Source: Dictyobacter arantiisoli
Lineage (GTDB): Bacteria; Chloroflexota; Ktedonobacteria; Ktedonobacterales; Ktedonobacteraceae
DNA length: 64,000 nucleotides
Reading direction: 5' to 3'
Assembly: GCF_008326305.1 (NCBI RefSeq)
Contig: NZ_BIXY01000020.1
Span: forward strand, 1 to 64,000
Position 1 is the first letter of the stretch. The number at the start of each line of letters is the position of its first letter. Below, one piece after another: positions 6,081 to 36,027 of this stretch. The position numbers were made by a program, and so were the translations under genes. Below the pieces are notes generated by a model, which was not told where the DNA came from, did not search any database, and worked only from the letters and a program-made list of their open reading frames with translations.

Positions 6081-6096
6081 AGTGAAGGAGCAACTC

Positions 6097-8996: not shown

Positions 8997-9236
8997 TCAA
9001 TCATGCCCCCCATTACTCCAAACACTGCATCCCATAGCCAGCGTTCCAGATAATCCTTATCTCAAGCTACATATTGTATGATCTATCATTTGAAAAATGA
9101 GAATCTAGACGACATTCATCGTTCCACACTCGACCAGCATTGATCATCCACCTCCCATATTGCTGGAATGGATGATCAAGCGGAAGCACGAAAAAACTGT
9201 GCATTTCATGTAAGGCATATTTGATACGCCAGCAGC

Positions 9237-12800: not shown

Positions 12801-12858
12801 AAATCCCCCCCCATAAAATCCCCCATCTATTCCTCACAATCAAAAAGCATAGCTACCA

Positions 12859-14091
12859 CTACTTTCGACGCGCAGCAAAGCGTGCTGTTGCACTGGCAAC
12901 CCGTCGGCCAGAAGCATGCGCACCAACCACAAAACGATACAAGGGGCCAAAAGAACGAACGGCACTTAAACCCACAAAGTATAAACCCGGCACACTACTT
13001 TCGAACCAGGGATTTAAGATTGGAATATCCTGATCGGATTTGATCTGTTTGGATAGCGCGGGACTAAGCATGGAGAGCTGAGACAGATGCACCTCATAGC
13101 CAGTTCCAAGTAAAACGTGATCCACATGAAGTTTCTGGCCGTCGGAGAGAGTTACATCGATACCATCGTCCTGCGTTTTCATCTCAGTAATCGAGGTTTT
13201 CTCATGTATGTTCACTTTCCCAATAACCCGATCACGCAACCAGGCGGCAGCAGCAGCCTGATAATTGGAGCGGATATAGCGATCTTTCCTGACCTGAGGG
13301 AAACGGTGAAACAGATAGGGCAAATATTCCAATGCCCAGTTGGTCCATCCAGGAGCAATGCCAGCATTTGGCTCAGCAATCTTCTCGCGCCACGAACGCT
13401 CTGCTGAACGATCTCGCTCCAACCAATTGATTTTATGTCGTGCCACCAGATGCACATCCTCAACCCCACCATCTTCTAACAACAAGGCCGCATATTCAAC
13501 CGCGCTTTGCCCTCCACCTACGACCAGTAGATGCTTCCCCTGGAACTGGCTATAATCGCTATGATCAAAGGCATGCGAGACCAGTTCCTTGGGAAAGAGG
13601 CGAAATTCCTCTGGGCGACGCGTATAATAGTAAACGCCGATAGCCATGACCACAGCCGTCGCCTGGACAATGCGACCATCTTCTAATGTCAGCACAAATT
13701 GACCATCTTGCCGATCAACTGAGGCAACATATGTTTCATCCACCTCGGGTACGGCATTTTTTTGAAACCACATGGCGTAATCCAGGAAAACGCTCATCGG
13801 AACAGGATAGGGCTTTTCCAACTTATTCAGTTGAAAATAGCGCTCAAAACTATATTTTTTCCGAGGATCTGAAAGATTGGTTGCCCACCAATGCGAGCGC
13901 AGGTACATACCAACAGGCATATGGTTGCGCCATAGTTCCATGGGCTTGCCGAAAACCCCGACCTTTAATCCTTTCCCGATCAAATGAGCGGCGGTAGTCA
14001 GGCCATAAGGGCCAGCCCCCACAACAACTACATCATATTTTGTTACCAAAGGAGATTGTTGAGATGTTTGTAGATCAGATACGATGCTCAC
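12859..14091 (-). CDS. FAD-dependent oxidoreductase / monooxygenase-like (module copy B)
   Basis: About 410 residues from a GTG at 14091. AAGGAG lies 7-8 bases upstream, and this start overlaps the TAG of the ATP-grasp gene by one base; a longer open frame upstream is disregarded. Motifs: VVVGAGPYGLTTAAHL (FAD), LLVVGGGQSAVEYAALL (NADPH) and LLGTGYEV. The segment YLRSHWWATNLSDPRKKY matches the paralogue at 9237 closely, and the C-termini share SFGPLYRFVVGA. The cofactor sites look intact in both copies. A role in oxidising an amine or ring on a surface-glycan precursor is possible but is inference from the neighbours. Confidence 0.82.
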   Translation of the reverse strand: MSIVSDLQTSQQSPLVTKYDVVVVGAGPYGLTTAAHLIGKGLKVGVFGKPMELWRNHMPVGMYLRSHWWATNLSDPRKKYSFERYFQLNKLEKPYPVPMSVFLDYAMWFQKNAVPEVDETYVASVDRQDGQFVLTLEDGRIVQATAVVMAIGVYYYTRRPEEFRLFPKELVSHAFDHSDYSQFQGKHLLVVGGGQSAVEYAALLLEDGGVEDVHLVARHKINWLERDRSAERSWREKIAEPNAGIAPGWTNWALEYLPYLFHRFPQVRKDRYIRSNYQAAAAAWLRDRVIGKVNIHEKTSITEMKTQDDGIDVTLSDGQKLHVDHVLLGTGYEVHLSQLSMLSPALSKQIKSDQDIPILNPWFESSVPGLYFVGLSAVRSFGPLYRFVVGAHASGRRVASATARFAARRK

Positions 14092-15419
14092 TATAGGCTC
14101 CTTTTTGCATGAGATAATCTCTTGCGAACGGCTCCTTCTACCCACTTACGCGTAAATTCCGCAGTCGCTTTTATAGCAGGAGCAAGATCATGCCAGTCAA
14201 TATAGTCATAACTCATGGGTTGAAAAAATGAGAGGGTAAAACCAAGCACAGCTTGTACTGGCGGCGTTACACCAGGGCGACCACGTCGTTGTAGAGCTTC
14301 AATAGTCGTCATAATGTCACCGCTCAAATAGCGCATCCATGTGCCAGTACGGTAAGATGAGATTTTATTGATAGATGTGCCAGTAGACCACTGGTAGAGC
14401 AAATACGGGAAATCCACGCCCGCACGAACCGCGATCTCGACTGACGCTGAGAGACGTGGATTAATCTCCATCAGATAAGGAACACCAACATGATCACGCC
14501 GGAATTCCACTTCAGAATACCCTTCCAGATCGATTTCGCGGATCAATCGCTCGGCCTGATTGTTAGTATCCAGTGGGAGAGCAATACTCTGTCGTAAGAC
14601 TGAGGTGCCTCCTAACTGAGGCTCGGTACGCTTGGCCCATTGGGCGAAACGTGCATATATTTCATGGTTGGCGTAAAACAAACTGATCGCTTCACGCCGA
14701 CCGGTCAGGAATTGTTGAAAGAGCGTTGTACCACCCAGACGAGTTAAATCCTCGACGGCAATGCGGGCCTCCTCATGAGTGGTAACCAGACGAGATGCGA
14801 AGCGCGCTCCCTCTATCTGGCCTTCACTCCATAACCAGGATTCAACAGGTTTCACTACGGCTGGTAAGCCGATTTCCTTAAGAGCCGCAGCTACATCATT
14901 AACCGCACTGACCGTGACACTACGAGGAATACTCAAACCCAATTGTCTGGCAACCTGCAAGGTCAATTCTTTATTGATAGCTATTTCCAGGGCCGGGTCC
15001 TGCGCCAGGGCAATGGTAGCGTGTTTGCTTAGACGTGTACGGTACTGCCGTAACAAGGCAACGGTACTATCAGAAGATGCCAACAAGACACGGGCACCAG
15101 TACGTTCTAACCATTGCTCAAGCACCTCAAGATAAGCGGGAGTACCGGAGGGGGCTGAGCAGATAATGCCCTGATGGCACCAGTGTGAAGAGAAAGCAGG
15201 AACTGCTTGCCCGGCCTCAAATGCTGCGACCGAGAGCCCCTGTCTCCCCAGTGAACGAATTGATACCAGAGATTGGCGTAATCCCGCATCCAATACCAAT
15301 ACATCATATCTAGAAGCCTTTTTTTCTGAATTTCCAGGTATTCGTTTAGAAACCTCTATTTGGACTTTCTCAGGCAAAATGATATAGGATGAACTATTTA
15401 CCACACGACACCTCAACAA
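14091..15419 (-). CDS. ATP-grasp ligase (module copy B)
   Basis: About 442 residues at most. The longest frame starts at TTG 15419; GTG 15404 has a better spaced TGAGGT and may be the true start. The domain order is the same as in the copy at 10460: VLVLDAGLRQSLVSIRSLGRQG, then AVVKPVESWLWSEG, GYSEVEFRRD and LMEINPRLSASVEIAVRAG. The two copies are clearly paralogous over their whole length, including ARFAQWAKRT and GGTSVLRQSIA. The ATP- and metal-binding residues are present in both, so neither looks decayed. It follows deacetylase copy C by about 25-40 bases and is directly coupled to the oxidoreductase downstream. Confidence 0.82.
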   Translation of the reverse strand: MLRCRVVNSSSYIILPEKVQIEVSKRIPGNSEKKASRYDVLVLDAGLRQSLVSIRSLGRQGLSVAAFEAGQAVPAFSSHWCHQGIICSAPSGTPAYLEVLEQWLERTGARVLLASSDSTVALLRQYRTRLSKHATIALAQDPALEIAINKELTLQVARQLGLSIPRSVTVSAVNDVAAALKEIGLPAVVKPVESWLWSEGQIEGARFASRLVTTHEEARIAVEDLTRLGGTTLFQQFLTGRREAISLFYANHEIYARFAQWAKRTEPQLGGTSVLRQSIALPLDTNNQAERLIREIDLEGYSEVEFRRDHVGVPYLMEINPRLSASVEIAVRAGVDFPYLLYQWSTGTSINKISSYRTGTWMRYLSGDIMTTIEALQRRGRPGVTPPVQAVLGFTLSFFQPMSYDYIDWHDLAPAIKATAEFTRKWVEGAVRKRLSHAKRSL

Positions 15420-15442
15420 ACGATGTATTCACATTTACACTT

Positions 15443-16486
15443 TTATATATCTGCACCCTCATTGATAAATGGTTTCCAGAGAGGAGCCAGTAAACTCCAG
15501 ATGCCCGAGGTCTCCGCCGCAATTAAAAGCCAGTGACGCCGTACATCGACCAGCACACGCTCAAGGCGATAGGGATCGCTTTGAGGTGTTGCTATCCCTT
15601 TCGTAGTTGTCACAGCCCAGGTATACATTGCCTCCCGCACAGCTTTCAAGGCTTCCTCACCAATATGTTCAGTACGCCCAATTGGATATGCAAATGTGCG
15701 AATAGTATTACCCAGACGTGCTTCCAATATTTCACGTGACCGGGCCACTTCATAATGAACCTCTGAGGGATCAGATAGGTAGGATAATACAGGATGATGC
15801 ATCGTGTGTGCTCCAAAACAAACCAAACCACTCTGCTGCATTTTCAACACCTCACACCACGTCAATGGAATATTATCATCTTTTAAATCTGATCTGCAAT
15901 AGTCTTGCTCAGATATGGCTAGTGCCTGCCTGATTTGCGACAAAAACTGGTCACGCCCTGCCACAGAACTGGCTGTTCGTAAACGCATATCAATCAAAGC
16001 TGATAATTGCTGTTGCGCTTCGACTGTTCGCAGATGATAGATATGTCCTTCAAAAAGAATTTCTTCTACCGTTGTTTGCGCGACTAAACGTTTCCCTTCC
16101 CCCCACCAAAAAAAATCGCCGCTATCAAGATAGCCTGGAATCAGAAAAATGGTAATCGGAACCTGCAACTCAACCGCCGCTTTAAATGCATGGGTATAAT
16201 TATCGTGGTATCCATCATCAAAAGTTAGTACCAGTGGCGTACGCAGCAACGATTTTTTATTGCCCTGGGAAACATGATAGAGTTCCTCCAATGCCTCATC
16301 TAAATGCAAGATACGATAATGGCGCTGGAGATAACGCATATGCTGAAGTATAGAGCCCGCGCTGGCGCGATGATAATTAAGAATAAGCAAATGTGGTCCC
16401 TGACGGCGCATTCGCCAGCGACAAAAAGCAACCAATCCACTATAGTAGAAACATGAGGCTAAAATAAGCCTTGCAACCCTGCGCAT
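15443..16486 (-). CDS. Polysaccharide deacetylase family protein (copy C)
   Basis: 347 residues. It has an N-terminal hydrophobic stretch (LILASCFYYSGLVAF), VLTFDDGYHDNYT with the catalytic Asp pair, GAHTMHHPVLSYLSDPSEV with the metal-binding histidines, and TFAYPIGRTEHIGEEAL. AAAGGA precedes the ATG. It is the third paralogue and starts the first of the two complete three-gene modules. The shared LSYLSD extension after the His motif, also found in the two other copies, suggests all three arose by duplication within this locus. Confidence 0.87.
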   Translation of the reverse strand: MRRVARLILASCFYYSGLVAFCRWRMRRQGPHLLILNYHRASAGSILQHMRYLQRHYRILHLDEALEELYHVSQGNKKSLLRTPLVLTFDDGYHDNYTHAFKAAVELQVPITIFLIPGYLDSGDFFWWGEGKRLVAQTTVEEILFEGHIYHLRTVEAQQQLSALIDMRLRTASSVAGRDQFLSQIRQALAISEQDYCRSDLKDDNIPLTWCEVLKMQQSGLVCFGAHTMHHPVLSYLSDPSEVHYEVARSREILEARLGNTIRTFAYPIGRTEHIGEEALKAVREAMYTWAVTTTKGIATPQSDPYRLERVLVDVRRHWLLIAAETSGIWSLLAPLWKPFINEGADI

Positions 16487-16525: not shown

Positions 16526-18181
16526 TCAAAAACCATTCGGATTATGCTTGACGACCAACGCACCCATAACGTTCTTCATTAATGCTTGCATACCAGGGAT
16601 AGCAGTATCTTTAAAACCACAATTGATATCCGGGTGTAATCGATATTTATCCAACGATACTTCCCAGTAGAGAGAGCCTGTCGCGAAGACCATTGCTCCA
16701 GATGGGGCAATATAATAAGCGGAATTACTTACATCTGCCAGTTTTGTTTCACTGCTTACAGTCGCAGAAGCGCTGATAATCTGTAAATTCTTAGGTGTGG
16801 TGCTACTATACGAAGGATTGCCTGGTGTGCCATTAGGATTCAGTTGCGCTCGATCCCACTCATATCCCACCAGACCACAGCCATATGCCTGCCCTGGCTG
16901 CAAATTTGTGCCTTTCAATAAAGGCAAATTTCCCGCCTGAGGCGCAACAGTCCAGGAAAATCCGTTCTGATCATGGTTGAGGTTTGAAAACATGATACCC
17001 ACAAGCGCGTTTTCGGGGCGTCCCACCACGGGATCGCGCCAGAAACTCGTGACGACCGAATTGTCCACGTTATACATGGGATCACGCCCCAGATCATTGT
17101 TTGCAGTCTCCACTTTATAACAAACAACCGTGCGGTTTGGTACACCGGCACTATCAGGTTCAAAGCGCATCTGCCAGTAGAGCGCATTCGCTCCCATAAA
17201 GGCCAGTCCCACTCCCTTATTACGTGCGTCCTCCACCTCACTACGCATCGTCTTAGTCCAATACTCATCATGTCCTAGAGAAATATAAGCTTTATGTGTA
17301 TTCAGAAGATGTGGAGTTACCTGCACGTCAATATCACTCGCATAAGAGACATCATAACCCTGTCGCTCCATCCAACGTACCGTCTGTGCAATAAAGACGA
17401 GAACCTGGCTGGAACCATTTTCGATAGCATAGGGCTTATCGAAAGACACCTTGGTAGCCATTTTCGCGACAGCAGTGCCTTGAAAAAGCTGATCAGCATC
17501 ATAGAGACTGGAGCCTCCCCAATTATTATAGGACTCATATGTCGTATCAGGAGTAACCGCAAGGTAAGCAGAATGGAGAGAACCAAGCACATCAAAGGGC
17601 ACATAGGACTGCTTTGCATTGATATCTGTGAACTTCGCCAGATAAACGCCAGAAGTCCAGCCCAGGGGAATTTTTAATGTATACGAAGCTTTCCAATGGG
17701 TTTCAATCAAGCCAGTATCTTTAGCAATAGTGCAAGAAGAACAATTCACCAATTGATTTGAGGCAGCATCAAAATACCCCTGGGCCTGCCCGGGCAGATC
17801 CAGCACAGAATCCATCAAACGACCACCTAGCCCGTTGTACCATCCCATACGAAATATATCTATTCGATAACGCATCTGAGGCACTTGAGTGCTGACATAT
17901 AATACGATAGATTTTCCGGGGCGCACAGAGGTTGCCCCTGCATAGGCTTGAATCTGCGTGGTTGATTCATCTCCCGCAGGAATTTGCCATGATGTTGTCC
18001 CATTGTGCGCATTCTCACGAACAATCTCGTTACCGGTTACAGAGCTGCTCGCATTATCCTGAAACACGGATAATTGATCATTCGATCGAGCTAACAGAGA
18101 TGGTGCGAGGAAATAAAAGCAGATCAATGCCCCTGCAATGATAAAAATTGTCACAATAGTAACAACTGACTTCCCTCTCAT
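16526..18181 (-). CDS. Membrane-anchored DMFase-like beta-subunit-type protein
   Basis: 551 residues with an N-terminal membrane anchor or signal segment (VVTIVTIFIIAGALICFYFLAP), so most of the protein probably faces outwards. The rest resembles the C-terminal domain of the N,N-dimethylformamidase large subunit: an Ig-like region with YRIDIFRMGWYNGLGGRL, then SYNNWGGSSLYD, YDVSYASDIDV, ISLGHDEYWT and GVGLAFMGANALYWQMR. No amidase activity can be claimed. Homologues in surface-polysaccharide contexts are mostly unstudied. It is the first gene of the minus-strand operon, 39 bases before deacetylase copy C, with GGAGG ahead of the ATG. A role in handling the exported glycan is inferred from position only. 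Confidence 0.7.
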   Translation of the reverse strand: MRGKSVVTIVTIFIIAGALICFYFLAPSLLARSNDQLSVFQDNASSSVTGNEIVRENAHNGTTSWQIPAGDESTTQIQAYAGATSVRPGKSIVLYVSTQVPQMRYRIDIFRMGWYNGLGGRLMDSVLDLPGQAQGYFDAASNQLVNCSSCTIAKDTGLIETHWKASYTLKIPLGWTSGVYLAKFTDINAKQSYVPFDVLGSLHSAYLAVTPDTTYESYNNWGGSSLYDADQLFQGTAVAKMATKVSFDKPYAIENGSSQVLVFIAQTVRWMERQGYDVSYASDIDVQVTPHLLNTHKAYISLGHDEYWTKTMRSEVEDARNKGVGLAFMGANALYWQMRFEPDSAGVPNRTVVCYKVETANNDLGRDPMYNVDNSVVTSFWRDPVVGRPENALVGIMFSNLNHDQNGFSWTVAPQAGNLPLLKGTNLQPGQAYGCGLVGYEWDRAQLNPNGTPGNPSYSSTTPKNLQIISASATVSSETKLADVSNSAYYIAPSGAMVFATGSLYWEVSLDKYRLHPDINCGFKDTAIPGMQALMKNVMGALVVKHNPNGF

Positions 18182-18842: not shown

Positions 18843-20279
18843 ATGCAGAGTACGCTCAGTCGCTATATACTACTCATAAAACGTTGGGCATGGGTGCTAA
18901 TACTTGGCATTGTGGTGTGCGGTGGTACAACCTATCTGGTTACCAAACTGCTGATGCAACCGGTTTATGAAGCACAAACACAAATTTTAATTACGCTCGC
19001 CGGCAGCTCACAAAATGATAGCACCACAGCGGCGATTGCTCAGCAACCTACGTATAACCAACTCATCACCAACCCCAATGTCCTTGCCCCGGTTGCCGCC
19101 AGGCATGGAATGACCCAAGCACAACTGAGCGCAATGGTAAAAACAGCGTCCGGAACAAATACGCCTATCATTGGAGTGCTGGTAGATAACAGTGATCCAC
19201 AGGTTGCCGCACAACTCTCACATGAGATCGCTCAAAGCTTTACAAACTATGCCAATACCAACCTCGGCAGTCAGGCCAACTTCAACATCATTGATCCAGT
19301 TGTTCCCAAAACGCCAGCGCAGCCACGTCCAACCCAGGATGCCCTTATTGGTGCCATGATTGGGCTGGGCTTAGGGCTGGCAATCATCATCATATTTGAA
19401 TGGATCGACGATCGCCTGACGGCTCCTGAGGAAGTAAATAAGCTCCTTGGTATTGATGCTCTCACGATCATTCCAGAGCTATCACGCAAACAGCGGTCAA
19501 AAAATGCTGAAGATACCCCCGAGCTGGCTGAAGGCTGCCGTATTCTGTGTGCAAATCTCAGTATGGCTCAGATGATTCGTCCATTTAAATTAGTCATGAT
19601 AACAAGTGCATTAGCAGGCGAAGGGAAAAGCACGATTGCAGCAAACATGGCATCCTTCCTCGCCATGTCTGGGAAACGCGTGCTGCTGGTTGATGCTGAT
19701 TTGCGTCATCCTGTACTGGATCAACACTTCCAGGTCAAAAATCAAAAAGGTCTCTCCAATGCCTTCCTGGAGATGTGGTCACAGGTTGAAGGTGAATTAG
19801 ATGGTCAACCAACTGAAATTCCCACCCTGCGTATATTAACAGCAGGTGTACTCCCATCTAATCCATCAGAGCTATTACAATCTCAATTGGCCAGCCAACT
19901 CTTCAATCATTTCCGTAACATATCCAGGTTTGATTATGTCATTTTCGACTCGCCTCCTTTATTGCCAATTGCAGATGCACAAATCTTAGCGGCATATATG
20001 CAGGTTACCATTCTTGTAGTGGATGCCTCCAAAACAGCGCGGAAAGCCATCATTCGTGCGAAGCAGGCACTCAACCGTACAGGCACGCGTATCCTTGGGG
20101 TCGCGCTGAATAAGAGTCACTGGCCAGAATTTGGCGAGGTCCACGATTATCTGAATAATATCCAGACGCGTCCCCGAGCAGATTTAACCATGGGTATACC
20201 ACCAAATACCCCATCGATTAATCACTCAATAGACGCAACGAATACCGCCATTCTCCCTTCAACCAAGGCGAAACACTGA
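18843..20279 (+). CDS. Polysaccharide co-polymerase fused to a BY-type tyrosine kinase (Wzz/CpsD-like)
   Basis: 478 residues. A Wzz-like part has membrane helices at about 15-35 and 167-187, with the proline-rich motif PKTPAQPRP just before the second. A cytoplasmic P-loop kinase follows: Walker A SALAGEGKST (255-264), A' VLLVDADLRHP (280-290) and Walker B YVIFDSPP (365-372). This protein should control polymer length and export. The usual cluster of C-terminal tyrosines for autophosphorylation is absent; the tail after DYLNNIQT is Thr/Pro/Asn-rich. No partner phosphatase is seen in the window. AAGGATGG precedes the ATG. It is the first gene of the plus-strand operon. Confidence 0.88.
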   Translation: MQSTLSRYILLIKRWAWVLILGIVVCGGTTYLVTKLLMQPVYEAQTQILITLAGSSQNDSTTAAIAQQPTYNQLITNPNVLAPVAARHGMTQAQLSAMVKTASGTNTPIIGVLVDNSDPQVAAQLSHEIAQSFTNYANTNLGSQANFNIIDPVVPKTPAQPRPTQDALIGAMIGLGLGLAIIIIFEWIDDRLTAPEEVNKLLGIDALTIIPELSRKQRSKNAEDTPELAEGCRILCANLSMAQMIRPFKLVMITSALAGEGKSTIAANMASFLAMSGKRVLLVDADLRHPVLDQHFQVKNQKGLSNAFLEMWSQVEGELDGQPTEIPTLRILTAGVLPSNPSELLQSQLASQLFNHFRNISRFDYVIFDSPPLLPIADAQILAAYMQVTILVVDASKTARKAIIRAKQALNRTGTRILGVALNKSHWPEFGEVHDYLNNIQTRPRADLTMGIPPNTPSINHSIDATNTAILPSTKAKH

Positions 20280-21762: not shown

Positions 21763-24705
21763 ATGTCTCAATCTTTGGATAACGGCAGAAGTGACAGCCG
21801 ACCATTGACTACAACAAGCGCCCGGCTCATTGCCGTTAAAATAAAATCAGCCAATAAAAATATCTTTCGGGCTTTACTCAGCCTTGCCTCGGCCAATTTA
21901 CTGATTCGCGTGATCGGCCTTTTGAATCAAATCATAGTAAGTGCACGGTTTGGACAAGATATGCATATGGATGCTTACTATGTTGCATCACTGATTCCAA
22001 CCACGGTCGCGCCCATGCTAGCCAGCGCAATGGAGGCTTCAGTCATACCAGTCTATGCACATCTTCGGCAAAAAGGAACAAACGAGCAAGCCTCCAGACT
22101 CTTCAGCACTCTCCTCAATCTTCTGATCATTCTCAGTATATTGCTCACGGCGGCGATGCTGCTCTTTCAGGTTCCACTACTAAGCATCCTGGCGCCGGGA
22201 ATCCGCGTATCAGCACCAGCAACCTTTACGATTGCTCGGAGCCTTGCTCCTTTTATCTTCCCCATCCTGGGTTTAATGGTACTGAACAGTTTCATGGAAT
22301 GCCTGCTTAATGCCGACGGAAAATTTGGCTGGCCAGCTTATGCGGGTATGTTAGTTCCCCTGACGACTGCTACCTGTGTACTGGTCGGGGGGAATTCCAT
22401 CGGTGTGCTGATGCTCTGTATTGGTTCAGTGATTGGACAACTCCTGCAATTGGGTGTCATTATTTATCGCGCACATAAAGCCCACATTGTCTACCACCCG
22501 GTCATGGATTTGCACATTCCCGAATTGAAACCAATTCTGGCTGCAGCCTGGCCAGCATTCTTCGCCGGGCTAATCAGTATGATGAGTCCGCTGGTAGATA
22601 CATTCTTTGGTTCCTATCAACATGAAGGGACTATAGCCGCTTTAAACAATGCATTGAAATTGAATAGTGTCCCAACTGGCGTAATCTTCTCCGCTGTAGG
22701 ACGCGCAGCTTTACCATATTTATCAAATCAGGCCGCAATCAAAGATATGAAAGCCTTCAAGGGAACCCTCCGTCTCTACCTCTGGATTGTGGGTCTGGCA
22801 ACCCTGGCCCTGACCTTCATGATGACGTTCGGTGCCTGGATTATTGTTGCTCTTATCTTTGAACATGGACGCTTTAATGCTCAAGATACCAATCAAACTG
22901 CCTGGATTCTGGCTGGGCTCTCAATTGGTATGTTCCCAACAGCCATTGGTTTTATTGTCTCAAGAGCCTTTAGCGCTTTGGGTCGCACCCGCATCTTGAT
23001 GGGGGTGAGTCTGTTCAGCATGATTGCCAATGCAGCTTTTGATGCAATCTTTGGTCGTTTATGGGGCGGGTTTGGTATTGCTTTTGCAACCTCACTGTAT
23101 TACTTCTGCACCATGATAATACTGATCGTCACACTCCGTATCATGATTGGGAAGCTTCAGCTATTAACACCTCCCAAAGAATTACGAGAGATAGTACGAA
23201 AAATAAGTAGAGGACAGTATCATAGGCAATGGGGAAAGTGGAAGAATACAGTGGGGACAAATATGGGAATAACCTATGCATTACGCAAACAGATGCTACG
23301 CGTAGGTTTTGCGGTATCTGTCTTTGCGCTGGGTACCGCCGGTGCCATCTCAAATGCGACATTAACAGTACGCATCGCATTTGGATCAATTCTTGTACTG
23401 TCTCTCTTTCGCTATCAATACCTGTTATTAATTGCCTGGGCCTGCATCAATGTTTTTATTGGCTCCTCGCTTCCTCTGTTTAATGGGAATAATTTGCTGT
23501 CTGGATTGACGCTACCAACACTGTTACTACTCTTCTATGTACCGACAAAAGAAGCGTTTAAACGCATGCCTTCCTTACCTTTCTGGCTCGCCTACTTTAT
23601 CTGGATACTGCTCAGCCTGAATATCTCACCGGTCCCTCTCCAACAATTTATGACCCTATGGACCACGCAGTTGGACTTTTTTGCAGTCAGCGTACTGGTG
23701 ATTATTCTGATCGATAATCGACAGAAACTCCTGCTCTTTATCGACGCCATGATTGCGCCAGCCATCTTCATAGCACTTTATGGCCTCTGGGGCTTCACGA
23801 CCCATCAACACGGTGTAGTGGATACCACGACAGGCTATTTCCGAATCAGTTCTATCTTTATGGATACACCACCGACCTTAGGGCTTTATCTCTCGGTACT
23901 AATTCCAATTGTCATTTATCGACTCTTTACCCTGCGCGGGCTCATCAAAATCTGTGCTGGCATTGCCGTTCTGCTTTTGTTACTGCTCGCCCTGGGTCTC
24001 ACCTTTAATCGCGGTACATTGCTTGCGGTAGCTGTGGGCCTGGTGATTACGGTTCTCTTCCTACCTTCAAACAAAATCAAAGGACTTGCCATCGGAGGAG
24101 GTACTGCGATCATCGGACTCATTTTTCTGGCAACAACCCTTGCCAATATTCCATTACTCAGTCGCTTTGCCAATAGCGATATCAGCTCATTAAATGGCCG
24201 TACCTATCTGTGGCAAGCCATCATCGACCACTTCGATCCAGCTCAATTGATGGGCAATGGTATGGAGTCTTCAAACGTATTGCTCACAAACTTAAAAGTT
24301 GGCTTTGGAGGCGGCATCATTGCCACTGCGGCCCACAATATTTATCTAGAGTCAATGTATGAGCATGGCATCATTGGTCTGACACTGATGCTGCTTGGCT
24401 TTGCCAGCATTGGCTATCTACTGCTCCGCAAATATAAAGGGGCTGGCTACGAACAAAAAATGCTGATCGCTGGTGCTTTTGGAACCTTTATCAGTATCGT
24501 TATCCAGGGCTACGAATCAAACGATATCTGGAACCAGGCCGTTGGCATCTACTTCTTCATTTTTGTCGCGCTCCCTTTCTGCCGCTACTGGGATAAAGAG
24601 AAACCATTTGTCACTACCGATGCATTGGGGAACGCGGCAGACGCTAGCTCGCTGCGTAATACAGACACACCAGCAAATGAACAAGAAGCGTTGGCGACGG
24701 TATGA
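21763..24705 (+). CDS. Fused lipid-linked glycan flippase and O-antigen polymerase/ligase-like protein
   Basis: 980 residues, nearly all membrane helices. Residues about 30-460 match the MurJ/MviN (MOP) flippase family: ANLLIRVIGLLNQIIVSARFG, MECLLNADGKFGWPAY, ALNNALKLNSVPTGV, AALPYLS and SRAFSALGRTR. A charged linker (about 465-505) leads to a second set of helices of the O-antigen polymerase/ligase type (Wzy_C), with LTFNRGTLLAVAVGL and AAHNIYLESMYEHGIIGL. The first half would flip undecaprenyl-linked repeat units and the second would polymerise or ligate them. These are usually separate proteins. The frame is continuous with no sign of an assembly error. The ribosome site is weak. Confidence 0.85.
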   Translation: MSQSLDNGRSDSRPLTTTSARLIAVKIKSANKNIFRALLSLASANLLIRVIGLLNQIIVSARFGQDMHMDAYYVASLIPTTVAPMLASAMEASVIPVYAHLRQKGTNEQASRLFSTLLNLLIILSILLTAAMLLFQVPLLSILAPGIRVSAPATFTIARSLAPFIFPILGLMVLNSFMECLLNADGKFGWPAYAGMLVPLTTATCVLVGGNSIGVLMLCIGSVIGQLLQLGVIIYRAHKAHIVYHPVMDLHIPELKPILAAAWPAFFAGLISMMSPLVDTFFGSYQHEGTIAALNNALKLNSVPTGVIFSAVGRAALPYLSNQAAIKDMKAFKGTLRLYLWIVGLATLALTFMMTFGAWIIVALIFEHGRFNAQDTNQTAWILAGLSIGMFPTAIGFIVSRAFSALGRTRILMGVSLFSMIANAAFDAIFGRLWGGFGIAFATSLYYFCTMIILIVTLRIMIGKLQLLTPPKELREIVRKISRGQYHRQWGKWKNTVGTNMGITYALRKQMLRVGFAVSVFALGTAGAISNATLTVRIAFGSILVLSLFRYQYLLLIAWACINVFIGSSLPLFNGNNLLSGLTLPTLLLLFYVPTKEAFKRMPSLPFWLAYFIWILLSLNISPVPLQQFMTLWTTQLDFFAVSVLVIILIDNRQKLLLFIDAMIAPAIFIALYGLWGFTTHQHGVVDTTTGYFRISSIFMDTPPTLGLYLSVLIPIVIYRLFTLRGLIKICAGIAVLLLLLLALGLTFNRGTLLAVAVGLVITVLFLPSNKIKGLAIGGGTAIIGLIFLATTLANIPLLSRFANSDISSLNGRTYLWQAIIDHFDPAQLMGNGMESSNVLLTNLKVGFGGGIIATAAHNIYLESMYEHGIIGLTLMLLGFASIGYLLLRKYKGAGYEQKMLIAGAFGTFISIVIQGYESNDIWNQAVGIYFFIFVALPFCRYWDKEKPFVTTDALGNAADASSLRNTDTPANEQEALATV

Positions 24706-24757
24706 GGCACGATTGCCTTGTTGCCCCATACGGATTTGCCAATCAAGGAGAACGATT

Positions 24758-26080
24758 GTGGACAAGCAATTACGCATCTGTATGGTCGCATTTCTCTATG
24801 CTCCTATTATTGGAGGAGCCGAGACACGGGCAGCCAATCAGGCGCACCAACTCCAGGAATTTGGGCATCAGGTGATGATTATTACCCTTCAACGCTATAA
24901 GGACTGGAAAAAGGCGGAAAACATCGATGGGATTCCCGTTATTCGCATTGGAGGTTCATTTAACCAGCATGGACGTTTACGAATTGGTCGTGTGGGTCAT
25001 ATTCCCATTGATATCGTGATGTTCTTCCAACTCTGGCGCATGCGTCATAGCTATGACATCTTACATACCATTCAACTTTCACCGCTCTCAGGGGTGGCAG
25101 CCCTGGTTGGAAAATTAACAGGCAAACCTGTCATTATCAGCATTCCAAGCACCGGACCCGGGAAAAAACCGCGCCCTCAGGATGCGGTCATGATGGCAGA
25201 TACATTGGTAGATCAATCTATTGATACCAGCTTTCTCAAGGTGGCCTACGAGGATACAGTGGTTGGCGATATGACACATATGAAAAAAACGGCGGTTGGA
25301 GGAGATGTTATTCTTCGCTATCTAAAAAAATCTGATGCATTTTATCATGTATTAAGCAATCGTAGTCGTACCTATATGATTTCAAATGGTTTTCGCGCTG
25401 CAAAGATCACCCATATTCCCAATGGTATTGATATTGAAAAATTCGCCCCTGTAGCCGAGTTGCGGCCAGATCCCACTCAGCCTGAGCGCGATATTCTATG
25501 CGTAGCGCGTCTGCAATATCCCAAGGGTGTGGATGTCCTTTTACATGCCTGGAAGCGTTTGATGAGCGCTCCCGCTGAGTGGCGCACCCAGCTCAAACCA
25601 CGTTTGCTGATCGCCGGAACAGGACAATCCGAGGCACAATTGAAACAATTAACACATGCTCTGGCTCTGGATGAAAGCGTGGTCTTTCTTGGATCGTGCA
25701 ATGATGTCATTCCCCTATTGCAGCGAGCATGGGGCTTCGTACTGCCCTCACGCTGGGAAGGCATGCCCAACGCGCTGCTGGAAGCGATGAGTTGTGGTCT
25801 TCCCTGTATTGCCACCAGAGTCAGCGGTAGCGAGGATATTGTAAACGATGGGGATAATGCGCTCCTGGTTGAACCTGAAGATCCAGTTGCATTGGCACTG
25901 GCTCTGCAACGCCTTATCGCTGATACAGAACTTACCCGGCAGCTGGCACTGGCAGGTCGCGCCACTGTTATCAAGGATTATCAATTAACAACTACTGCAG
26001 AACAATTAATTCTTTTCTATCAGCAAACGCTCGGGCAAGCGACACAATCTCCAATACTAGAAAGCGTGGAGAAGAAATAA
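24758..26080 (+). CDS. Glycosyltransferase family 4 (first of a tandem pair)
   Basis: About 440 residues from a GTG at 24758, preceded by AAGGAG. The frame stays open further upstream into the fused flippase gene, which is chance. The N-terminal GT-B domain starts ICMVAFLYAPIIGGAETRAANQ. The sugar-nucleotide domain carries SRWEGMPNALLEAMSCGLPCIATRVSGSEDIV, with the E-x7-E retaining motif. It should add one sugar from a nucleotide donor to the lipid-linked repeat unit at the inner membrane face. Donor and linkage cannot be read. An insertion with many Asp and Lys residues (about 145-200) separates the domains. It ends one base before the next, paralogous gene. Confidence 0.88.
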   Translation: MDKQLRICMVAFLYAPIIGGAETRAANQAHQLQEFGHQVMIITLQRYKDWKKAENIDGIPVIRIGGSFNQHGRLRIGRVGHIPIDIVMFFQLWRMRHSYDILHTIQLSPLSGVAALVGKLTGKPVIISIPSTGPGKKPRPQDAVMMADTLVDQSIDTSFLKVAYEDTVVGDMTHMKKTAVGGDVILRYLKKSDAFYHVLSNRSRTYMISNGFRAAKITHIPNGIDIEKFAPVAELRPDPTQPERDILCVARLQYPKGVDVLLHAWKRLMSAPAEWRTQLKPRLLIAGTGQSEAQLKQLTHALALDESVVFLGSCNDVIPLLQRAWGFVLPSRWEGMPNALLEAMSCGLPCIATRVSGSEDIVNDGDNALLVEPEDPVALALALQRLIADTELTRQLALAGRATVIKDYQLTTTAEQLILFYQQTLGQATQSPILESVEKK

Positions 26081-26081
26081 G

Positions 26082-27413
26082 ATGGAACAAAAACCACGTA
26101 TTTGCGTCGCTATCAGCACTTTTTATCCTCTTGTCGGTGGCGCAGAAACGCAAACACTTGCTCAATGTCAAAAACTCATTGTAGCTGGCTATCAAATCAC
26201 GGTCATTACCTTTCACCACCAAGATTTCTCGCCTGTCCATGATAACGTAGCTGGCGTGCCCGTCTATCGTGTAGCGGGACGCCTGATTGGGAAACGAGGG
26301 AAGTATCCTCGTTTGATCCAGCGGATACTCTATTTCATGGCAATGATTGTCATGACAATCACCATCTGGCGTGAACGTAAAAGTTTTGATCTATTACAGG
26401 TTTGTCAATTCAGCTTACTTGTCTTACCATTATCCTTTGTATGTTACCTCGCAAAAAAGCCGATGACCATTGTGGCAATCAGCGCTGGCGGTGAAAAACC
26501 TGCGAAAACGCACGAACCGGCCAGACTTATCGCTGGCCCCCTTGATCCAGATACCCCCTGGCTATGCGTCGATGGGAAGACATGGATAGATGGCGATCTT
26601 TATGGATTACAAGCAGCTGGCAACCTGGTCGTCAACACCACACGCATACTGCTCAAACGCATTGACGCGGTCGTCATTGTGCTGAGTACACGTATGAAAC
26701 GGTACCTCGCCGCCAATGATTTTGATCTCCCAGGAACCGTGATTATTCCCAACGGGGTTGATACCTCACGCTTTTATCCCATCCCAACGGAAGGGAATCT
26801 TGCCCAACAGGCCAGAACGGTTGTCTGCGTTTCTAAAGCACGCTACGAAAAAGGACTGGATGTTCTCTTGCAAGCCTGGCATATCGTGCAAAAGCAAGCG
26901 CCAGACGCTCGGCTGGTAATTGTAGGAAGTGGACCAGTTCAACCTCAGTTAGAACAAATGGCAACGGCCTTACAAATCACGGCAAGCGTCGAATTCGCAG
27001 GCCTGCAAAACAATGTGCCAGGACAACTTCATCGTGGGCTCATCGGTATCTTGCCTTCGCGCTGGGAGGGCATGCCAAATGCGCTACTTGAGGCTATGGC
27101 CTGCGGCCTCGCCTGTATTGCGACCCGCGTGAGCGGTAGCGAAGATGTCATTCAAACAGGCATCAATGGCCTGCTGGTTGAACCTGAAGATTATCAGGGG
27201 ATGGCTCAGGCGCTGCTCACATTATTAGAAGCTCCAGATTTAGCCCAAAGCTACGGAAAAGCAGCGGCAGCTCTGATCATACAATCCTATACGCTTGAAC
27301 ATGTGTTAAGCCAGTATACAACCTTATATCAAAAGCTAACACATACCTATATACAGCACATCAGCAATCTTACCTATTCAGACGACTGTTCTGTTACGTC
27401 TGAGCGCTCTTGA
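26082..27413 (+). CDS. Glycosyltransferase family 4 (second of a tandem pair)
   Basis: 443 residues, paralogous to the preceding gene. It begins ICVAISTFYPLVGGAETQTLAQ and has SRWEGMPNALLEAMACGLACIATRVSGSEDVI in the donor domain. It shares the same mid-protein insertion (GGEKPAKTHEPARL and DGKTWIDGDLYGLQ) before the acceptor-donor hinge. The stop of the previous gene is TAA, then G, then ATG, with GGAGAAG upstream, so the two are coupled. Tandem duplicates of this kind often add neighbouring sugars of one repeat unit, but specificity is unknown. Confidence 0.88.
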   Translation: MEQKPRICVAISTFYPLVGGAETQTLAQCQKLIVAGYQITVITFHHQDFSPVHDNVAGVPVYRVAGRLIGKRGKYPRLIQRILYFMAMIVMTITIWRERKSFDLLQVCQFSLLVLPLSFVCYLAKKPMTIVAISAGGEKPAKTHEPARLIAGPLDPDTPWLCVDGKTWIDGDLYGLQAAGNLVVNTTRILLKRIDAVVIVLSTRMKRYLAANDFDLPGTVIIPNGVDTSRFYPIPTEGNLAQQARTVVCVSKARYEKGLDVLLQAWHIVQKQAPDARLVIVGSGPVQPQLEQMATALQITASVEFAGLQNNVPGQLHRGLIGILPSRWEGMPNALLEAMACGLACIATRVSGSEDVIQTGINGLLVEPEDYQGMAQALLTLLEAPDLAQSYGKAAAALIIQSYTLEHVLSQYTTLYQKLTHTYIQHISNLTYSDDCSVTSERS

Positions 27414-27428
27414 AAGGATACATATTCC

Positions 27429-29375
27429 ATGTGTGGAATAGCAGGATTTGTCAATTTACATGGTGGATATACGAATGCTGAACAGCTCATCGATACCATG
27501 TGTCAGATCATCCGCCATCGTGGACCCGATGATCAAGGGACATGGATCGGAGAACATCAAGCAAACAGCACAAATGTTGCTCTTGGCATGCGCCGACTGG
27601 CAATTATCGACCTTGTGGGAAGTCATCAACCCATTTTCAACGAAGATAAAAGTAAATTAATCGTCTTTAATGGCGAGATTTATAATTATCGTGAATTACA
27701 ACAGGAGTTGCGTGAACGTGGTCACCAATTTCAAACCGATGGTGATACAGAGACCATTCTCCATGCCTATGAAGAATATGGCGATGATTGTGTAAATTTA
27801 CTGCGTGGTATGTTCACATTCGCAATCTGGGACATCAAGCGACAACGTCTATTTGCCGCACGGGATCGCTTCGGAAAAAAACCGCTAAACTACTATTGGG
27901 ATGGACAACGCCTGATCTTTGGCTCTGAAATCAAATCAATCCTGACCGCTGATATCCCACGGGAAATCAATCCGCTGGCTCTTGATGAATATCTGGTCTA
28001 TCGCTATGTACCATCTCCTCTGACACTCTTTAAAAATGTCATGAAGGTGCCACCAGCCCACGTGCTGGTCTATGAAAATGGGGAAGTCAGTACCAAACGT
28101 TACTGGGATATCTCCTTCGCGCATATCTGTCATGATGATGAGGAGACGGCAATCGCCCGCGCCAGAGCCCTGCTCGAAGAGGCTATCCGTATTCGCCTGA
28201 TGAGTGAGGTTCCTTTGGGGGCTTTTTTGAGCGGGGGGCTGGATTCTAGTATCGTTGTGGGAATGATGAGCAGGATCATGACACAGCCGGTCAAAACCTT
28301 TTCCATCGGTTTTGAGGATGATAAATATAATGAGTTACCTCATGCTCGTAAGGTTGCTCAATACTTCGGGACCGACCATCATGAGTTCTTCGTCAAATAT
28401 GATCTCGTTTCGATACTGCCACAACTTGTCTGGGCATACGATGAGCCATTCGCGGATTCTTCAATGCTGCCGACTTACTATGTCTCCAAACTGGCACGTG
28501 AACATGTGACAGTGGCGTTATCAGGAGATGGTGGGGACGAGATTTTTGGTGGCTATGAGCAATATCGCCGTGAATATCAGATTTATCATGTTCCGCAGTT
28601 ACTACGGGAAACACTGGCACATAGTTCTTCCTTGCTACCTGATGGCATACGTGGCAAGAAACGTCTGCAAACCTGGCTTAAGGATTTTGGCACACGCAAT
28701 ATTGAAGCAATGATGCTCTTCCCAGGATATTCTCGTGCCGCTATCTATAGCAAGGAATTCTTCCAGCAGGTGAAATATCATCAACCCTATGAACGCCATC
28801 TGGAGATTTATCGCAGGGTAGCGCAGCTTGATCCAACAGCCAGAATCCAATACGCCGACACCCTGACCTATCTACCAGATGATATTCTCGTGAAGGTTGA
28901 TAAAGCCAGCATGTTTAATTCCCTCGAAACCCGCGCCCCTTTATTGGATCATAAATTGGCTGAATATGTAGCTTCGCTCGATCCACAGTTACGGGTCAAC
29001 AATGGCAACATTCATAATGGAAGCGGCAAATATCTTTTACAGAAGGTTGCCCAGGATTTATTGCCCTCCGAAATTATTAAACGTCCTAAACGTGGCTTCG
29101 CCGTACCGATTGAGGAATGGTTCCGCAAAGATATGCATAGCTATGCCCACGATATTCTGGGATCAGAAAAAGCGCGTAATCGCGGCATCTTCAATCAGAA
29201 ACTGCTGGAGGAACTGCTCAGGACCGACGGCAGAAGTACCATCACAAACCATAGCCAGGTACTCTGGACCCTGCTCTGCCTTGAATTGTGGTTTCAGACC
29301 TATATGGATGACGCCACCACACAGGCACCACTTGTGGATCACCTTCCACAGCAAGATCCTCTGAGTCGCCGCTGA
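27429..29375 (+). CDS. Glutamine-dependent asparagine-synthase-like amidotransferase (copy 1)
   Basis: 648 residues. The N-terminus MCGIAGF leaves Cys2 as the glutaminase nucleophile. RRLAIIDL, FNGEIYNYRELQ and DTETILHAYEEYG complete the class II amidotransferase domain. The C-terminal PP-loop synthetase domain has LSGGLDSS (ATP), LSGDGGDEIFGGYEQY and ETRAPLLDHKL. The family transfers ammonia from glutamine to an ATP-activated carboxylate. Although it may make asparagine, its place amid glycosyltransferases and a UDP-uronic-acid pathway suggests amidation of a uronic acid, as described for WbpS-type proteins of O-antigen clusters. That role is inference. AAAGGA precedes the ATG. Confidence 0.85.
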   Translation: MCGIAGFVNLHGGYTNAEQLIDTMCQIIRHRGPDDQGTWIGEHQANSTNVALGMRRLAIIDLVGSHQPIFNEDKSKLIVFNGEIYNYRELQQELRERGHQFQTDGDTETILHAYEEYGDDCVNLLRGMFTFAIWDIKRQRLFAARDRFGKKPLNYYWDGQRLIFGSEIKSILTADIPREINPLALDEYLVYRYVPSPLTLFKNVMKVPPAHVLVYENGEVSTKRYWDISFAHICHDDEETAIARARALLEEAIRIRLMSEVPLGAFLSGGLDSSIVVGMMSRIMTQPVKTFSIGFEDDKYNELPHARKVAQYFGTDHHEFFVKYDLVSILPQLVWAYDEPFADSSMLPTYYVSKLAREHVTVALSGDGGDEIFGGYEQYRREYQIYHVPQLLRETLAHSSSLLPDGIRGKKRLQTWLKDFGTRNIEAMMLFPGYSRAAIYSKEFFQQVKYHQPYERHLEIYRRVAQLDPTARIQYADTLTYLPDDILVKVDKASMFNSLETRAPLLDHKLAEYVASLDPQLRVNNGNIHNGSGKYLLQKVAQDLLPSEIIKRPKRGFAVPIEEWFRKDMHSYAHDILGSEKARNRGIFNQKLLEELLRTDGRSTITNHSQVLWTLLCLELWFQTYMDDATTQAPLVDHLPQQDPLSRR

Positions 29376-29413
29376 GCCAGAACCAACGCTAAAGCAAAGA
29401 AAAGGGGAAGTTT

Positions 29414-31354
29414 ATGTGCGGCATTTGTGGAATCTACAACGCACGCAGTGGCGAACCAGTCTCCACAGCCACAATTGACACGATGATCCGCTTGATTGCC
29501 CATCGTGGACCAGATGATCGTGGAGTACACCTTGCTGGCCCGCTGGGGCTGGGATTCGCTCGTCTGAGCATCATTGATCTGAGCGGCGGTCATCAGCCAA
29601 TGTGTAACGAAACTGGCGATGTCTGGATTGTCTTTAATGGCGAAATTTGGAACTATAAAGAACTCCGCAAAGAGCTCCAGGAGCGAGGGCACATCTTCCA
29701 GACAAATAGCGATACAGAAACCATTGTCCATGCTTACGAAGAGTATGGAGTCGACTGTATTGCACGCCTGCATGGGATGTTCGGTCTGGCACTCTGGGAT
29801 GGACCGCGCCACCGTCTCTTATTAGCCCGCGATAAAGCTGGCAAAAAACCACTTTACTATACCAATCTCAATGGCAATATCATCTTTGGCTCAGAGATCA
29901 AAGCGGTTCTGGGTCATCCACAGGTCAAACGCGAGGTGGATGTGCAGGCCATGGCAGATTTTCTCAGTGTGCGCTATGTGCCCGCTCCAGCTACACTGTT
30001 TAAAAATATTGCCAAGATCAAGCCCGGTCATTGGATTCTCTTTGAAAATGGGCAGATGCGCGAGGAGTGCTACTGGGATTTCAGCTTTAAAGCTACTGAG
30101 CAACGTCCCATGGCTGACTATGTGGCAGGCATCAAGCAACATGTGCAGCGCGCCGTTGAAGAACGCATGATGGCCGATGTGCCGGTAGGTGCGATGCTCA
30201 GTGGCGGCGTTGATTCCAGCATTATAGCTGGCATTATGAGTCGCTGCACTAATCAGAAGGTCAAAACGTTCTCAGTTGGTTTTGATCAGCCCGAATATAG
30301 CGAATTACCATACGCCCGTATGGTTGCCAATCATTTTGGCACCGATCACCACGAACTGGTCGTCAGTTCAGCAGATCTCACACAATACTGGCCCCTGCTC
30401 ACCTGGCATCGTGATGAACCAGTCAGTGAGCCCTCAGATCTGGGAGTCTATTTGATTTCCAAACTGGCGCGCCAGCATGTCAAAGTCGTCCTCTCAGGAG
30501 AAGGAGCCGATGAACTCTTCGCTGGTTATCCCAAATATGTAGTTGATTGGATGGCAAGATACTATCATATTCTGCCCGCCGCGCTCCGCGATCAGGCCAT
30601 TCAACCCCTGCTGGAACGTCTGCCATATAGCATGCGTAAGCTTAAAATAGCGGCCCGCAATCTCTCTCAACCGGCCCCACAACGCTGGATGAACTGGTTT
30701 GGCATCTTCAACGGTCCACTCAAAGAACAATTATTGACGCCAGCTACAAAAGCAATGATTGATCTGGATGCCAGCCGCGAATTCCAACACTGGCTTCTCC
30801 ATAATCCACAACGCGATGCTCTCTCATCAATGCTCTATCTGGATACCAAAATCTGGCTGCCAGACAATCTACTCATGAAGGGAGACAAGATGACAATGGC
30901 GGCTTCATTAGAATCGCGTATTCCCATGTTAGATTATAAGCTCATCGAATATGCCGCCAGTATTCCATCCCAGGCTAAGATCAAAGGTCTCAAAACCAAA
31001 TATCTTTTGAAACAGGCCTTTGCGGATTTCTTACCCACAGAGATTTTGACGCGCAAAAAGATGGGTTTTAATGTGCCAACCGGCATCTGGTTTCGCGAGG
31101 GCCAACGCGATCTGATCAGTAACCTGCTCCTCTCGGAGCGTACACACAGCCGAGGATTTTTCCAGCGCGACTATATACAAAAGATCATGCAGGATCATCT
31201 TGCTGGCAAGACAAATTATCAGGCTCAGATCTTCACGCTGGCCAGCCTGGAGTTGTGGTTCCGCGTTTTTATCGATACCCCTACCCTGGAAATGCCACAG
31301 GGATCAATGGAGACATTTCTGGCTGAAGAACAGGCCATTGTTTCTGCTCACTAG
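29414..31354 (+). CDS. Glutamine-dependent asparagine-synthase-like amidotransferase (copy 2)
   Basis: 646 residues, the same architecture as copy 1: MCGICGIYN with Cys2, LSIIDLSGGHQPM, FNGEIWNYKEL, then LSGGVDSS and LSGEGADELFAGYPKY in the synthetase domain and ESRIPMLDYKL. The two are paralogues but differ enough in the synthetase half (SGDGGDEIFGG versus SGEGADELFAG) to have distinct acceptors. It lies 38 bases after copy 1 with GGGGAAG upstream of the ATG. Two amidotransferases could amidate two different uronic acids or two positions; this is not testable from sequence alone. Confidence 0.85.
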   Translation: MCGICGIYNARSGEPVSTATIDTMIRLIAHRGPDDRGVHLAGPLGLGFARLSIIDLSGGHQPMCNETGDVWIVFNGEIWNYKELRKELQERGHIFQTNSDTETIVHAYEEYGVDCIARLHGMFGLALWDGPRHRLLLARDKAGKKPLYYTNLNGNIIFGSEIKAVLGHPQVKREVDVQAMADFLSVRYVPAPATLFKNIAKIKPGHWILFENGQMREECYWDFSFKATEQRPMADYVAGIKQHVQRAVEERMMADVPVGAMLSGGVDSSIIAGIMSRCTNQKVKTFSVGFDQPEYSELPYARMVANHFGTDHHELVVSSADLTQYWPLLTWHRDEPVSEPSDLGVYLISKLARQHVKVVLSGEGADELFAGYPKYVVDWMARYYHILPAALRDQAIQPLLERLPYSMRKLKIAARNLSQPAPQRWMNWFGIFNGPLKEQLLTPATKAMIDLDASREFQHWLLHNPQRDALSSMLYLDTKIWLPDNLLMKGDKMTMAASLESRIPMLDYKLIEYAASIPSQAKIKGLKTKYLLKQAFADFLPTEILTRKKMGFNVPTGIWFREGQRDLISNLLLSERTHSRGFFQRDYIQKIMQDHLAGKTNYQAQIFTLASLELWFRVFIDTPTLEMPQGSMETFLAEEQAIVSAH

Positions 31355-31378
31355 CACTCAGAAAGGATGAGATGTATT

Positions 31379-32452
31379 ATGTCGGAGGCAACAACCTCTA
31401 CACCGTTTCGCGTCCTGATGGTGACAGGCATTTATCCAACCAAAGAACGACCGCACGCGGGCACATTTGTCAAAACACAGGTTGACTCGCTTTGCGATGC
31501 TGGCCTACAGGTGGATGTACTCCATCCCAGCATCGGTCGCCCTTCGCCCATCCGCTACGCCGATGCACTTTTACAAATCTGGCGTATGGCCGGGTGCTAC
31601 GATGTGATCAATGGACAATATGGACTCTGGTGCGTAATTTGTCGACTTCAATGGAAAACCCCAGTTGTCGCCGCCTATCTGGGCGACGATATTCTGGGCA
31701 CAATTACAGAAGAGGGTGGCTATAGCACCAAAGGCAACTTTGTCGTCATGCTCAGTCGCTGGCTTTGTTACTGGGTCGAAGCCGTCACGGTTAAATCCCA
31801 ACAGATGAAAAGAGTTGCCCGTGGGCCGCAGCACAAGATCTATGTCATTCCCGATGGGGTAAACTTCGAACAGTTCCATCCAGTGCCACGCGAAGAGATA
31901 CGCGCCGAACTCGGCTGGGATCAAAAGAAATATTATGTACTTTTCAGCAATAATCCACGCATTCCAGTTAAAAACTATCCTCTGGCCCGGGCAGCAGTAG
32001 AAAAAGTGCGTGCCAGAGGCATAGATATTGAACTCGTCGTGGCTAATGGTTTGCCACATGAGACGGTTGTGAAGTATATGAATGCCAGCAATGCACTGAT
32101 CCTCTCTTCGCATGCTGAAGGCTCACCGAATGTGGTCAGAGAAGCCATGGCCTGCAACGTGCCGGTTGTGGGAACCGATGTAGGCGACGTACGCGATGTT
32201 ATTGGACGCACCGCTGGCTGTACTGTTTGTACACCAAATAATGTTGACGAAATGGCAGCGGGCATCGAGGTGGCCCTGGCGCATACCGAACGCACCACAG
32301 GGCGGCGCGATACCCAGCATCTCTCCAGTAGTAATATCGCCCAACAAATTATCAATCTTTATGAAAAAGTGACCCACAAAAAAATCCAGCGCAAACTAAA
32401 ACCAACAGAGAACATTTCAGCACAGGAGGAAACTGCATATGCGCAGGAATAA
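31379..32452 (+). CDS. Glycosyltransferase family 4
   Basis: About 357 residues from the ATG at 31379 (MSEATT). An in-frame ATG at 31367 directly abuts its ribosome site and is less likely. The N-terminal part starts VLMVTGIYPTKERPHAGTFVKTQ, a form seen in GT4 enzymes of exopolysaccharide clusters. The donor domain has ILSSHAEGSPNVVREAMACNVPVVGTDVGDVRDVI with the E-x7-E motif. There is no membrane segment, and it probably works at the inner face of the membrane. It follows asnB-like copy 2 closely and overlaps the next gene by 14 bases. Confidence 0.85.
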   Translation: MSEATTSTPFRVLMVTGIYPTKERPHAGTFVKTQVDSLCDAGLQVDVLHPSIGRPSPIRYADALLQIWRMAGCYDVINGQYGLWCVICRLQWKTPVVAAYLGDDILGTITEEGGYSTKGNFVVMLSRWLCYWVEAVTVKSQQMKRVARGPQHKIYVIPDGVNFEQFHPVPREEIRAELGWDQKKYYVLFSNNPRIPVKNYPLARAAVEKVRARGIDIELVVANGLPHETVVKYMNASNALILSSHAEGSPNVVREAMACNVPVVGTDVGDVRDVIGRTAGCTVCTPNNVDEMAAGIEVALAHTERTTGRRDTQHLSSSNIAQQIINLYEKVTHKKIQRKLKPTENISAQEETAYAQE

Positions 32453-35962: not shown

Positions 35963-36027
35963 ACTTCAATCCTCTAAAGTCTTACACAGCATATTATTAC
36001 ATTTATGAGCTCTATAGAGAGGGGTTG

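Follow-up and report, generated by a model that had tools for sequence, protein, structure and literature searches.

The stretch of DNA analyzed here, hereafter the window, comprises the first 64,000 nucleotides of contig NZ_BIXY01000020.1 from Dictyobacter arantiisoli, a member of the Ktedonobacterales (Chloroflexota) with a genome of 7.2 Mb. On its forward strand, positions 21763–24705 form a single ATG-to-stop frame of 980 codons without interruption; the reverse complement of the same segment, read in the same register, contains many stops. Pfam assigns to the encoded protein a MurJ domain (PF03023) at residues 60–459 with an E-value of 3.3e-63 and a Wzy_C domain (PF04932) at residues 736–876 with an E-value of 4.1e-14. 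Flippases and polymerases or ligases of surface polysaccharides are normally separate proteins, a statement of the preliminary description of this DNA which agrees with the literature consulted. The same description claimed that here one continuous frame carries both, and the frame, the two profiles and further genomes bear this out: an uninterrupted, full-length homologous frame was found in 15 other Ktedonobacterales genomes from the same genus, family or order, at 26–75% identity, and both Pfam families are matched by all 16 fused proteins (Wzy_C at an E-value of 0.001).

These genomes include the complete records AP024096 and NZ_CP035758, and in Dictyobacter aurantiacus and D. kobayashii, the closest named relatives judged by the fusion protein (74–75% identity), the gene lies on multi-megabase contigs. 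Where dN/dS could be estimated between pairs, it was about 0.05–0.13 in the flippase half as well as in the polymerase half, and strong purifying selection thus acts on both. The fused frame is neither a chance event nor a sequencing slip. An artefact of sequencing or assembly, by which a missed stop codon or a frameshift would have joined two genes, has a negligible probability, as 15 independent genomes, finished ones among them, show the identical frame and nothing was found in favor of this explanation. The intact frames in these genomes leave no place for a missed stop between the halves, and neither half fails to match its family in profile searches.

The gene is embedded in a polysaccharide cluster. 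Two genes upstream lies a polysaccharide co-polymerase in which a Wzz domain is combined with a BY-kinase-like ATPase (18843–20279, forward strand), and directly upstream a nucleotide-sugar dehydrogenase (TIGR03026; 20384–21685, forward). Downstream, on the same strand, follow a first GT4 glycosyltransferase (24536–26080), whose open reading frame overlaps the 3' end of the fusion and whose homologous part starts near 24750, a second one (26082–27413), two asparagine-synthase-like amidotransferases (27429–31354), two further GT4 glycosyltransferases (31367–33815) encoded by overlapping genes (31367–32452 and 32439–33815) and an NAD-dependent epimerase (33888–34853), for which the nearest named family is TviC-like, below cut-off. 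A Gfo/Idh oxidoreductase and a DegT aminotransferase of amino-sugar synthesis (34958–37158) are encoded on the reverse strand, and a priming sugar-phosphate transferase (PF02397; 37609–38283) again on the forward strand. The sugar enzymes of the cluster point to a repeat unit containing an amino-uronic acid, possibly in amidated form. The two amidotransferases are different proteins in tandem, with XrtA-system amidotransferase models as the nearest ones, below cut-off; perhaps they amidate uronic acids.

A priming transferase, glycosyltransferases and a co-polymerase are thus gathered in one cluster, as is expected of a Wzx/Wzy-type locus, whereas the separate wzx and wzy genes of such loci are replaced by one fused gene. 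No second flippase or Wzy was recognized among the cluster genes scanned, nor as a homologue in the flanks, and among the genes scanned the fusion is the sole predicted flippase and polymerase of a complete Wzx/Wzy-type cluster. The likeness to Wzx/Wzy-dependent assembly (Wzx, Wzy, Wzz/Wzc) extends to the priming transferase, the glycosyltransferases, the flippase, the polymerase, the co-polymerase with its kinase domain and the nucleotide-sugar enzymes. The differences are that flippase and polymerase form one polypeptide and that the flippase is, by Pfam, of the MurJ type and not of the PST/Wzx type. In teichuronic acid synthesis by Bacillus subtilis, the flippase TuaB and the polymerase TuaE are likewise encoded in a cluster with a UDP-sugar dehydrogenase, but by two genes instead of one. 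The association is also retained in evolution. A close homologue of the co-polymerase is present in exactly the 13 genomes of the family (out of 29) which possess the fusion, one gene never occurring without the other; glycosyltransferase genes always adjoin the fusion gene in the genomes carrying it; and the gene order from the co-polymerase to the last GT4 glycosyltransferase is kept in most relatives, with local losses.

The flippase half (residues 30–462; 21850–23148, forward strand) scores 214.3 bits with the Pfam MurJ profile, well above the gathering score of 27.4. In an AlphaFold2 model of the whole protein, built from an alignment of 13 rows, it forms 12 long helices; an unstructured linker separates them from another helical domain (whole model: mean pLDDT 70.3, pTM 0.48). 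Foldseek matched this model, through its N-terminal half, to MurJ structures (E 1.4e-15) and then to MATE transporters and WzxE. Both sequence family and MOP fold are accordingly shared with MurJ, and the preliminary naming of this half as Wzx/MurJ-type holds for fold and family. It probably does not extend to the function of a lipid II flippase. Although MurJ is the best sequence family, which would be in favor of the N-terminal half being the cell's lipid II flippase and of the protein working in peptidoglycan synthesis, the fusion scores 221.5 bits with the MurJ equivalog model TIGR01695 (NCBIfam), below the cut-off of 235.55, which is passed with 289 and 277.5 bits by two further genes in the D. 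arantiisoli genome (loci L003 and L004). The profile match stops at position 400 of 451 (starting at position 2), with nothing present beyond it, whereas the matches of the genome's own MurJ proteins extend to positions 441 and 444. The full MurJ architecture has 14 helices, TM13 and TM14 following a 12-helix core; in the fusion, the model has 12 helices before the linker.

The pyrophosphate triad of MurJ is R24-D25-R255 in the numbering of T. africanus (PMC11706664), and these positions align with N55-Q56-K299 in the fusion. Among the 16 fused proteins, N55 is found in 14, Q56 in 15 and K299 in all, and R49 and D70 of the flippase half are invariant. The triad and cavity residues discriminate weakly, as the two better MurJ proteins of the genome also lack D25, R52 and R255. 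In addition, the gene belongs to a polysaccharide cluster, and many relatives lack it. Taken together, the score below cut-off, the truncated match, the two better MurJ proteins and, with little weight, the triad make a lipid II role very improbable. The N-terminal half is probably derived from a MurJ-like flippase, "MurJ" being a label for fold and family only; the favored role is Wzx-like, with a different lipid-linked glycan as substrate.

The two halves are joined by a linker (residues 463–504; 23149–23274, forward strand) which had been described as basic, a description confirmed by the 12 lysines and arginines against two aspartates and glutamates in the stretch 463–514. Over this aligned stretch, its length is 36–52 residues in all 16 members. 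Reading the 12 preceding helices from a cytoplasmic start would place the linker in the cytoplasm, and its charge is in keeping with this position. The same topology would have the larger loops of the C-terminal half (about 681–704 and 794–860) both facing the outside. The structure prediction called for in the preliminary description delivered the 12 helices, the linker and the second helical domain; the packing of the halves is unreliable, the linker being of low confidence and the overall pTM 0.48. A long linker which evolves fast would also suit a fusion that secures only equal expression and membrane insertion, the halves working independently and the C-terminal half perhaps being produced to some extent on its own from an internal start. 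In the window protein, an ATG (Met501) preceded by a G-rich stretch could provide such a start, but this methionine is unconserved, being leucine or another residue in most other members. Moreover, the fusion has been retained down to 26% identity, and no split version of the cluster was found in the class genomes searched. Independence of the halves has, on this evidence, only a slim chance of being correct.

The C-terminal half (residues 505–945; 23275–24597, forward strand) scores 53.1 bits with the Wzy_C profile, against a gathering score of 31.7. Modeled alone (pLDDT 73.6, pTM 0.76), it adopts a GT-C-type fold with two outer loops. In a Foldseek comparison of this model with the PDB, one match was significant, the O-antigen ligase WaaL (7TPG, E 3.8e-7), with RodA/FtsW weaker; the match is remote, with 16% identity over the structural alignment, TM scores of 0.48–0.56 and an rmsd of 7.6. 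A search of the PDB with the sequence profile of this half gave no relevant match, fold comparison alone giving one. Five arginines (694, 720, 750, 801 and 813) are conserved in all 16 members. The motif H[NSQ]X9GXX[GTY] is a WaaL motif; it occurs in the window protein at H858, as H-N-X9-G-X2-G, and in 14 of the 16 members. In the other two fused proteins (loci L013/L041 and L015/L043), the motif histidine of the Wzy half is replaced by serine, the rest being conserved. RX10G, a Wzy motif of P. aeruginosa, is present in the window protein at R801–G812, although it is not retained in all members. Among the curated NCBIfam models, no Wzy polymerase model matches the C-terminal half of the window protein, which received no label; the labels obtained by single members are scattered, partly ligase-like (PEP_O_lig_1, TfpM) and partly unrelated, and they include IctB.

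With WaaL and Wzy (PF04932), this half thus shares the Wzy_C domain, the fold nearest to 7TPG, the conserved arginines and the histidine motif, and it differs from them in the flippase attached to its N-terminus and in its remote sequence. Several of these features would suit a fusion of flippase and ligase, in which the C-terminal half, without polymerizing, would pass a completed glycan or an individual repeat unit from its lipid carrier to a protein, a cell-wall polymer or a lipid: WaaL is the nearest solved fold, its motif is present in most members, and PEP_O_lig_1 and TfpM are each matched by one member, at 1.6e-14 and 2.3e-6, respectively. However, Wzy_C covers both activities, and neither profile nor fold discriminates between polymerase and ligase. 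It is the gene context which favors a polymerase, namely the co-polymerase/kinase gene two genes upstream, which co-occurs with the fusion, and a cluster in which no other polymerase was recognized. A ligase is accordingly considered unlikely, although it is the most serious of the competing explanations. The anatomy initially proposed, a MOP-type flippase connected through a basic linker to a Wzy/WaaL-type enzyme, is thus fully borne out by the profile matches, the fold comparisons, the conservation and the genomic context.

The same two-domain architecture, for which a search in related genomes had been advised, is present in 16 of the 47 genomes of the class, 13 of them among the 29 genomes of the same family and three in other families of the order. 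Homologues were found with an alignment as query, a single-sequence scan of the genome contigs having found nothing. Of 400 sampled phylum genomes, none outside the order carries the fusion, and the matches there end near residues 460 to 525, where the flippase half ends. No other fusion turned up in plasmids or in 237 genomes from a second phylum, to which a Myxococcales locus (L048) belongs; both results are weak negatives, obtained with a strict E-value and order-specific profiles, and sampling outside Chloroflexota was light.

In a tree of the 16 fused N-terminal halves and 26 stand-alone MurJ-like proteins, the fused ones form one clade with a support of 100/100. The C-terminal halves cluster with a support of 88/93 on long branches; their tree is largely congruent with that of the N-terminal halves, most supported groups being common to both. 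The single N-terminal clade and the shared groups fit one fusion event followed by joint inheritance. Judged on the C-terminal half alone, there is a small residual probability that the three distant members arose from a separate fusion.

Other assembly components have also been fused in the Ktedonobacterales. Eight genomes of the same family encode proteins of 1015–1065 residues in which the order is reversed, Wzy_C being N-terminal and a PST-type Wzx (PF01943/PF13440) C-terminal, with a co-polymerase/kinase gene adjoining; the five loci read are L078:2229–5279, L079:4280–7342, L080:3023–6190, L081:7231–10275 and L082:2969–6163. Pfam confirmed PF01943 in five of these eight proteins, and the remaining three align with the profile of those five along almost its whole length. 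The D. arantiisoli genome itself encodes, on the reverse strand of another contig (G000 contig C4 7895–10822, corresponding to L077:4896–7823), a protein of 976 residues composed of Wzz, a BY-kinase-like ATPase and Wzy_C, the parts of which are separate neighboring genes in D. kobayashii (L083:6197–8020 and 4705–6189). The Wzy part of this protein is homologous to the N-terminal half of the eight Wzy–Wzx fusions, these Wzy parts sharing about 47% identity. A triple fusion of 1426 residues, present in a single genome of the order (L018:1384–5661, also L074:10343–14623), extends the MurJ–Wzy_C protein at its C-terminal end by a GT4 domain homologous to the first downstream glycosyltransferase of the window. 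An apparent frame of 1729 residues in genome G009, combining a co-polymerase with a Wzy–Wzx fusion, was rejected, as three stops separate the two genes.

Flippase and polymerase have thus become joined on at least two occasions, with the order reversed and the flippase drawn from another family. No other argument for the usefulness of having flipping and polymerization close together is as strong as this unexpected convergence, which also lends support to the proposal, made in the preliminary description and plausible on the present data, that flipping and polymerization are directly coupled by the link.

We consider it likely that the protein is the flippase and polymerase of a Wzx/Wzy-dependent surface-polysaccharide pathway, both activities being predicted, with a local hand-over at the exit of the cognate flippase. 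In such a pathway, the neighboring priming transferase and GT4 enzymes would assemble a repeat unit linked to undecaprenyl diphosphate, which the 12-helix N-terminal half would move to the outer face of the membrane and the GT-C-type C-terminal half would join to the growing chain, the adjacent co-polymerase/kinase controlling polymerization and setting chain length. The tether, predicted to be cytoplasmic, would fix a 1:1 ratio and keep the polymerase at the exit of its flippase, and each flipped unit would pass to the polymerase on the spot and not diffuse through a shared pool of lipid carriers. The arrangement might be advantageous through this local hand-over, through the fixed ratio and through the matching of cognate specificities. 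A broader and more speculative explanation, which we regard as doubtful, is that Ktedonobacterales repeatedly fuse these components because flippase, polymerase and co-polymerase constitute one obligate complex through which the repeat unit is passed directly, bypassing the free lipid pool.

A Wzx–Wzy–Wzz super-complex has long been proposed from genetics, experimental evidence for it being "currently lacking" according to a structural study of 2023, in which WzyE occupies the membrane lumen enclosed by eight WzzE subunits (PMC10030265). In R. leguminosarum, PssP was suggested to bridge homologues of Wzx and Wzy (PMC4182512). The fusions support such a complex: a long-conserved natural fusion that arose independently in two arrangements speaks, on comparative grounds, for the proximity of flippase and polymerase, and one long protein in these soil bacteria suggests that two steps usually performed by separate proteins are held physically together. 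It also adds a geometric constraint. Should the polymerase reside, like WzyE, within a ring of eight co-polymerases, its tethered flippase would have to lie outside and reach it from there, unless the ring is built differently; a linker of 36–52 residues could run under a loosely packed ring of co-polymerase helices, the flippase staying outside.

MviN-clan flippases are known from gene neighborhoods of, or fusions with, other envelope-lipid enzymes such as VanZ/lipocone proteins (PMC12419801). These associations resemble the present one in bringing a flippase of this clan together with an envelope-lipid enzyme and differ from it in the partner, VanZ instead of Wzy. No description of a Wzx–Wzy fusion was found in the open-licence literature and, judged against it, the components are of known kinds and the fused architecture is a new arrangement of them. 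With both predicted steps on one chain, the fusion offers a target for structural studies and a means of asking whether flipping is coupled to polymerization.

Two further features lie upstream of the cluster on the reverse strand. A divergent block (7327–16486) encodes polysaccharide deacetylases (three), ATP-grasp proteins (two) and FAD/NAD oxidoreductases (two) and is conserved beside the fusion in several relatives. Next to it, a gene at 16526–18181 encodes a protein with the C-terminal domain of the N,N-dimethylformamidase beta subunit (PF20254, E 8.6e-96), which is likewise conserved by the cluster in several relatives.
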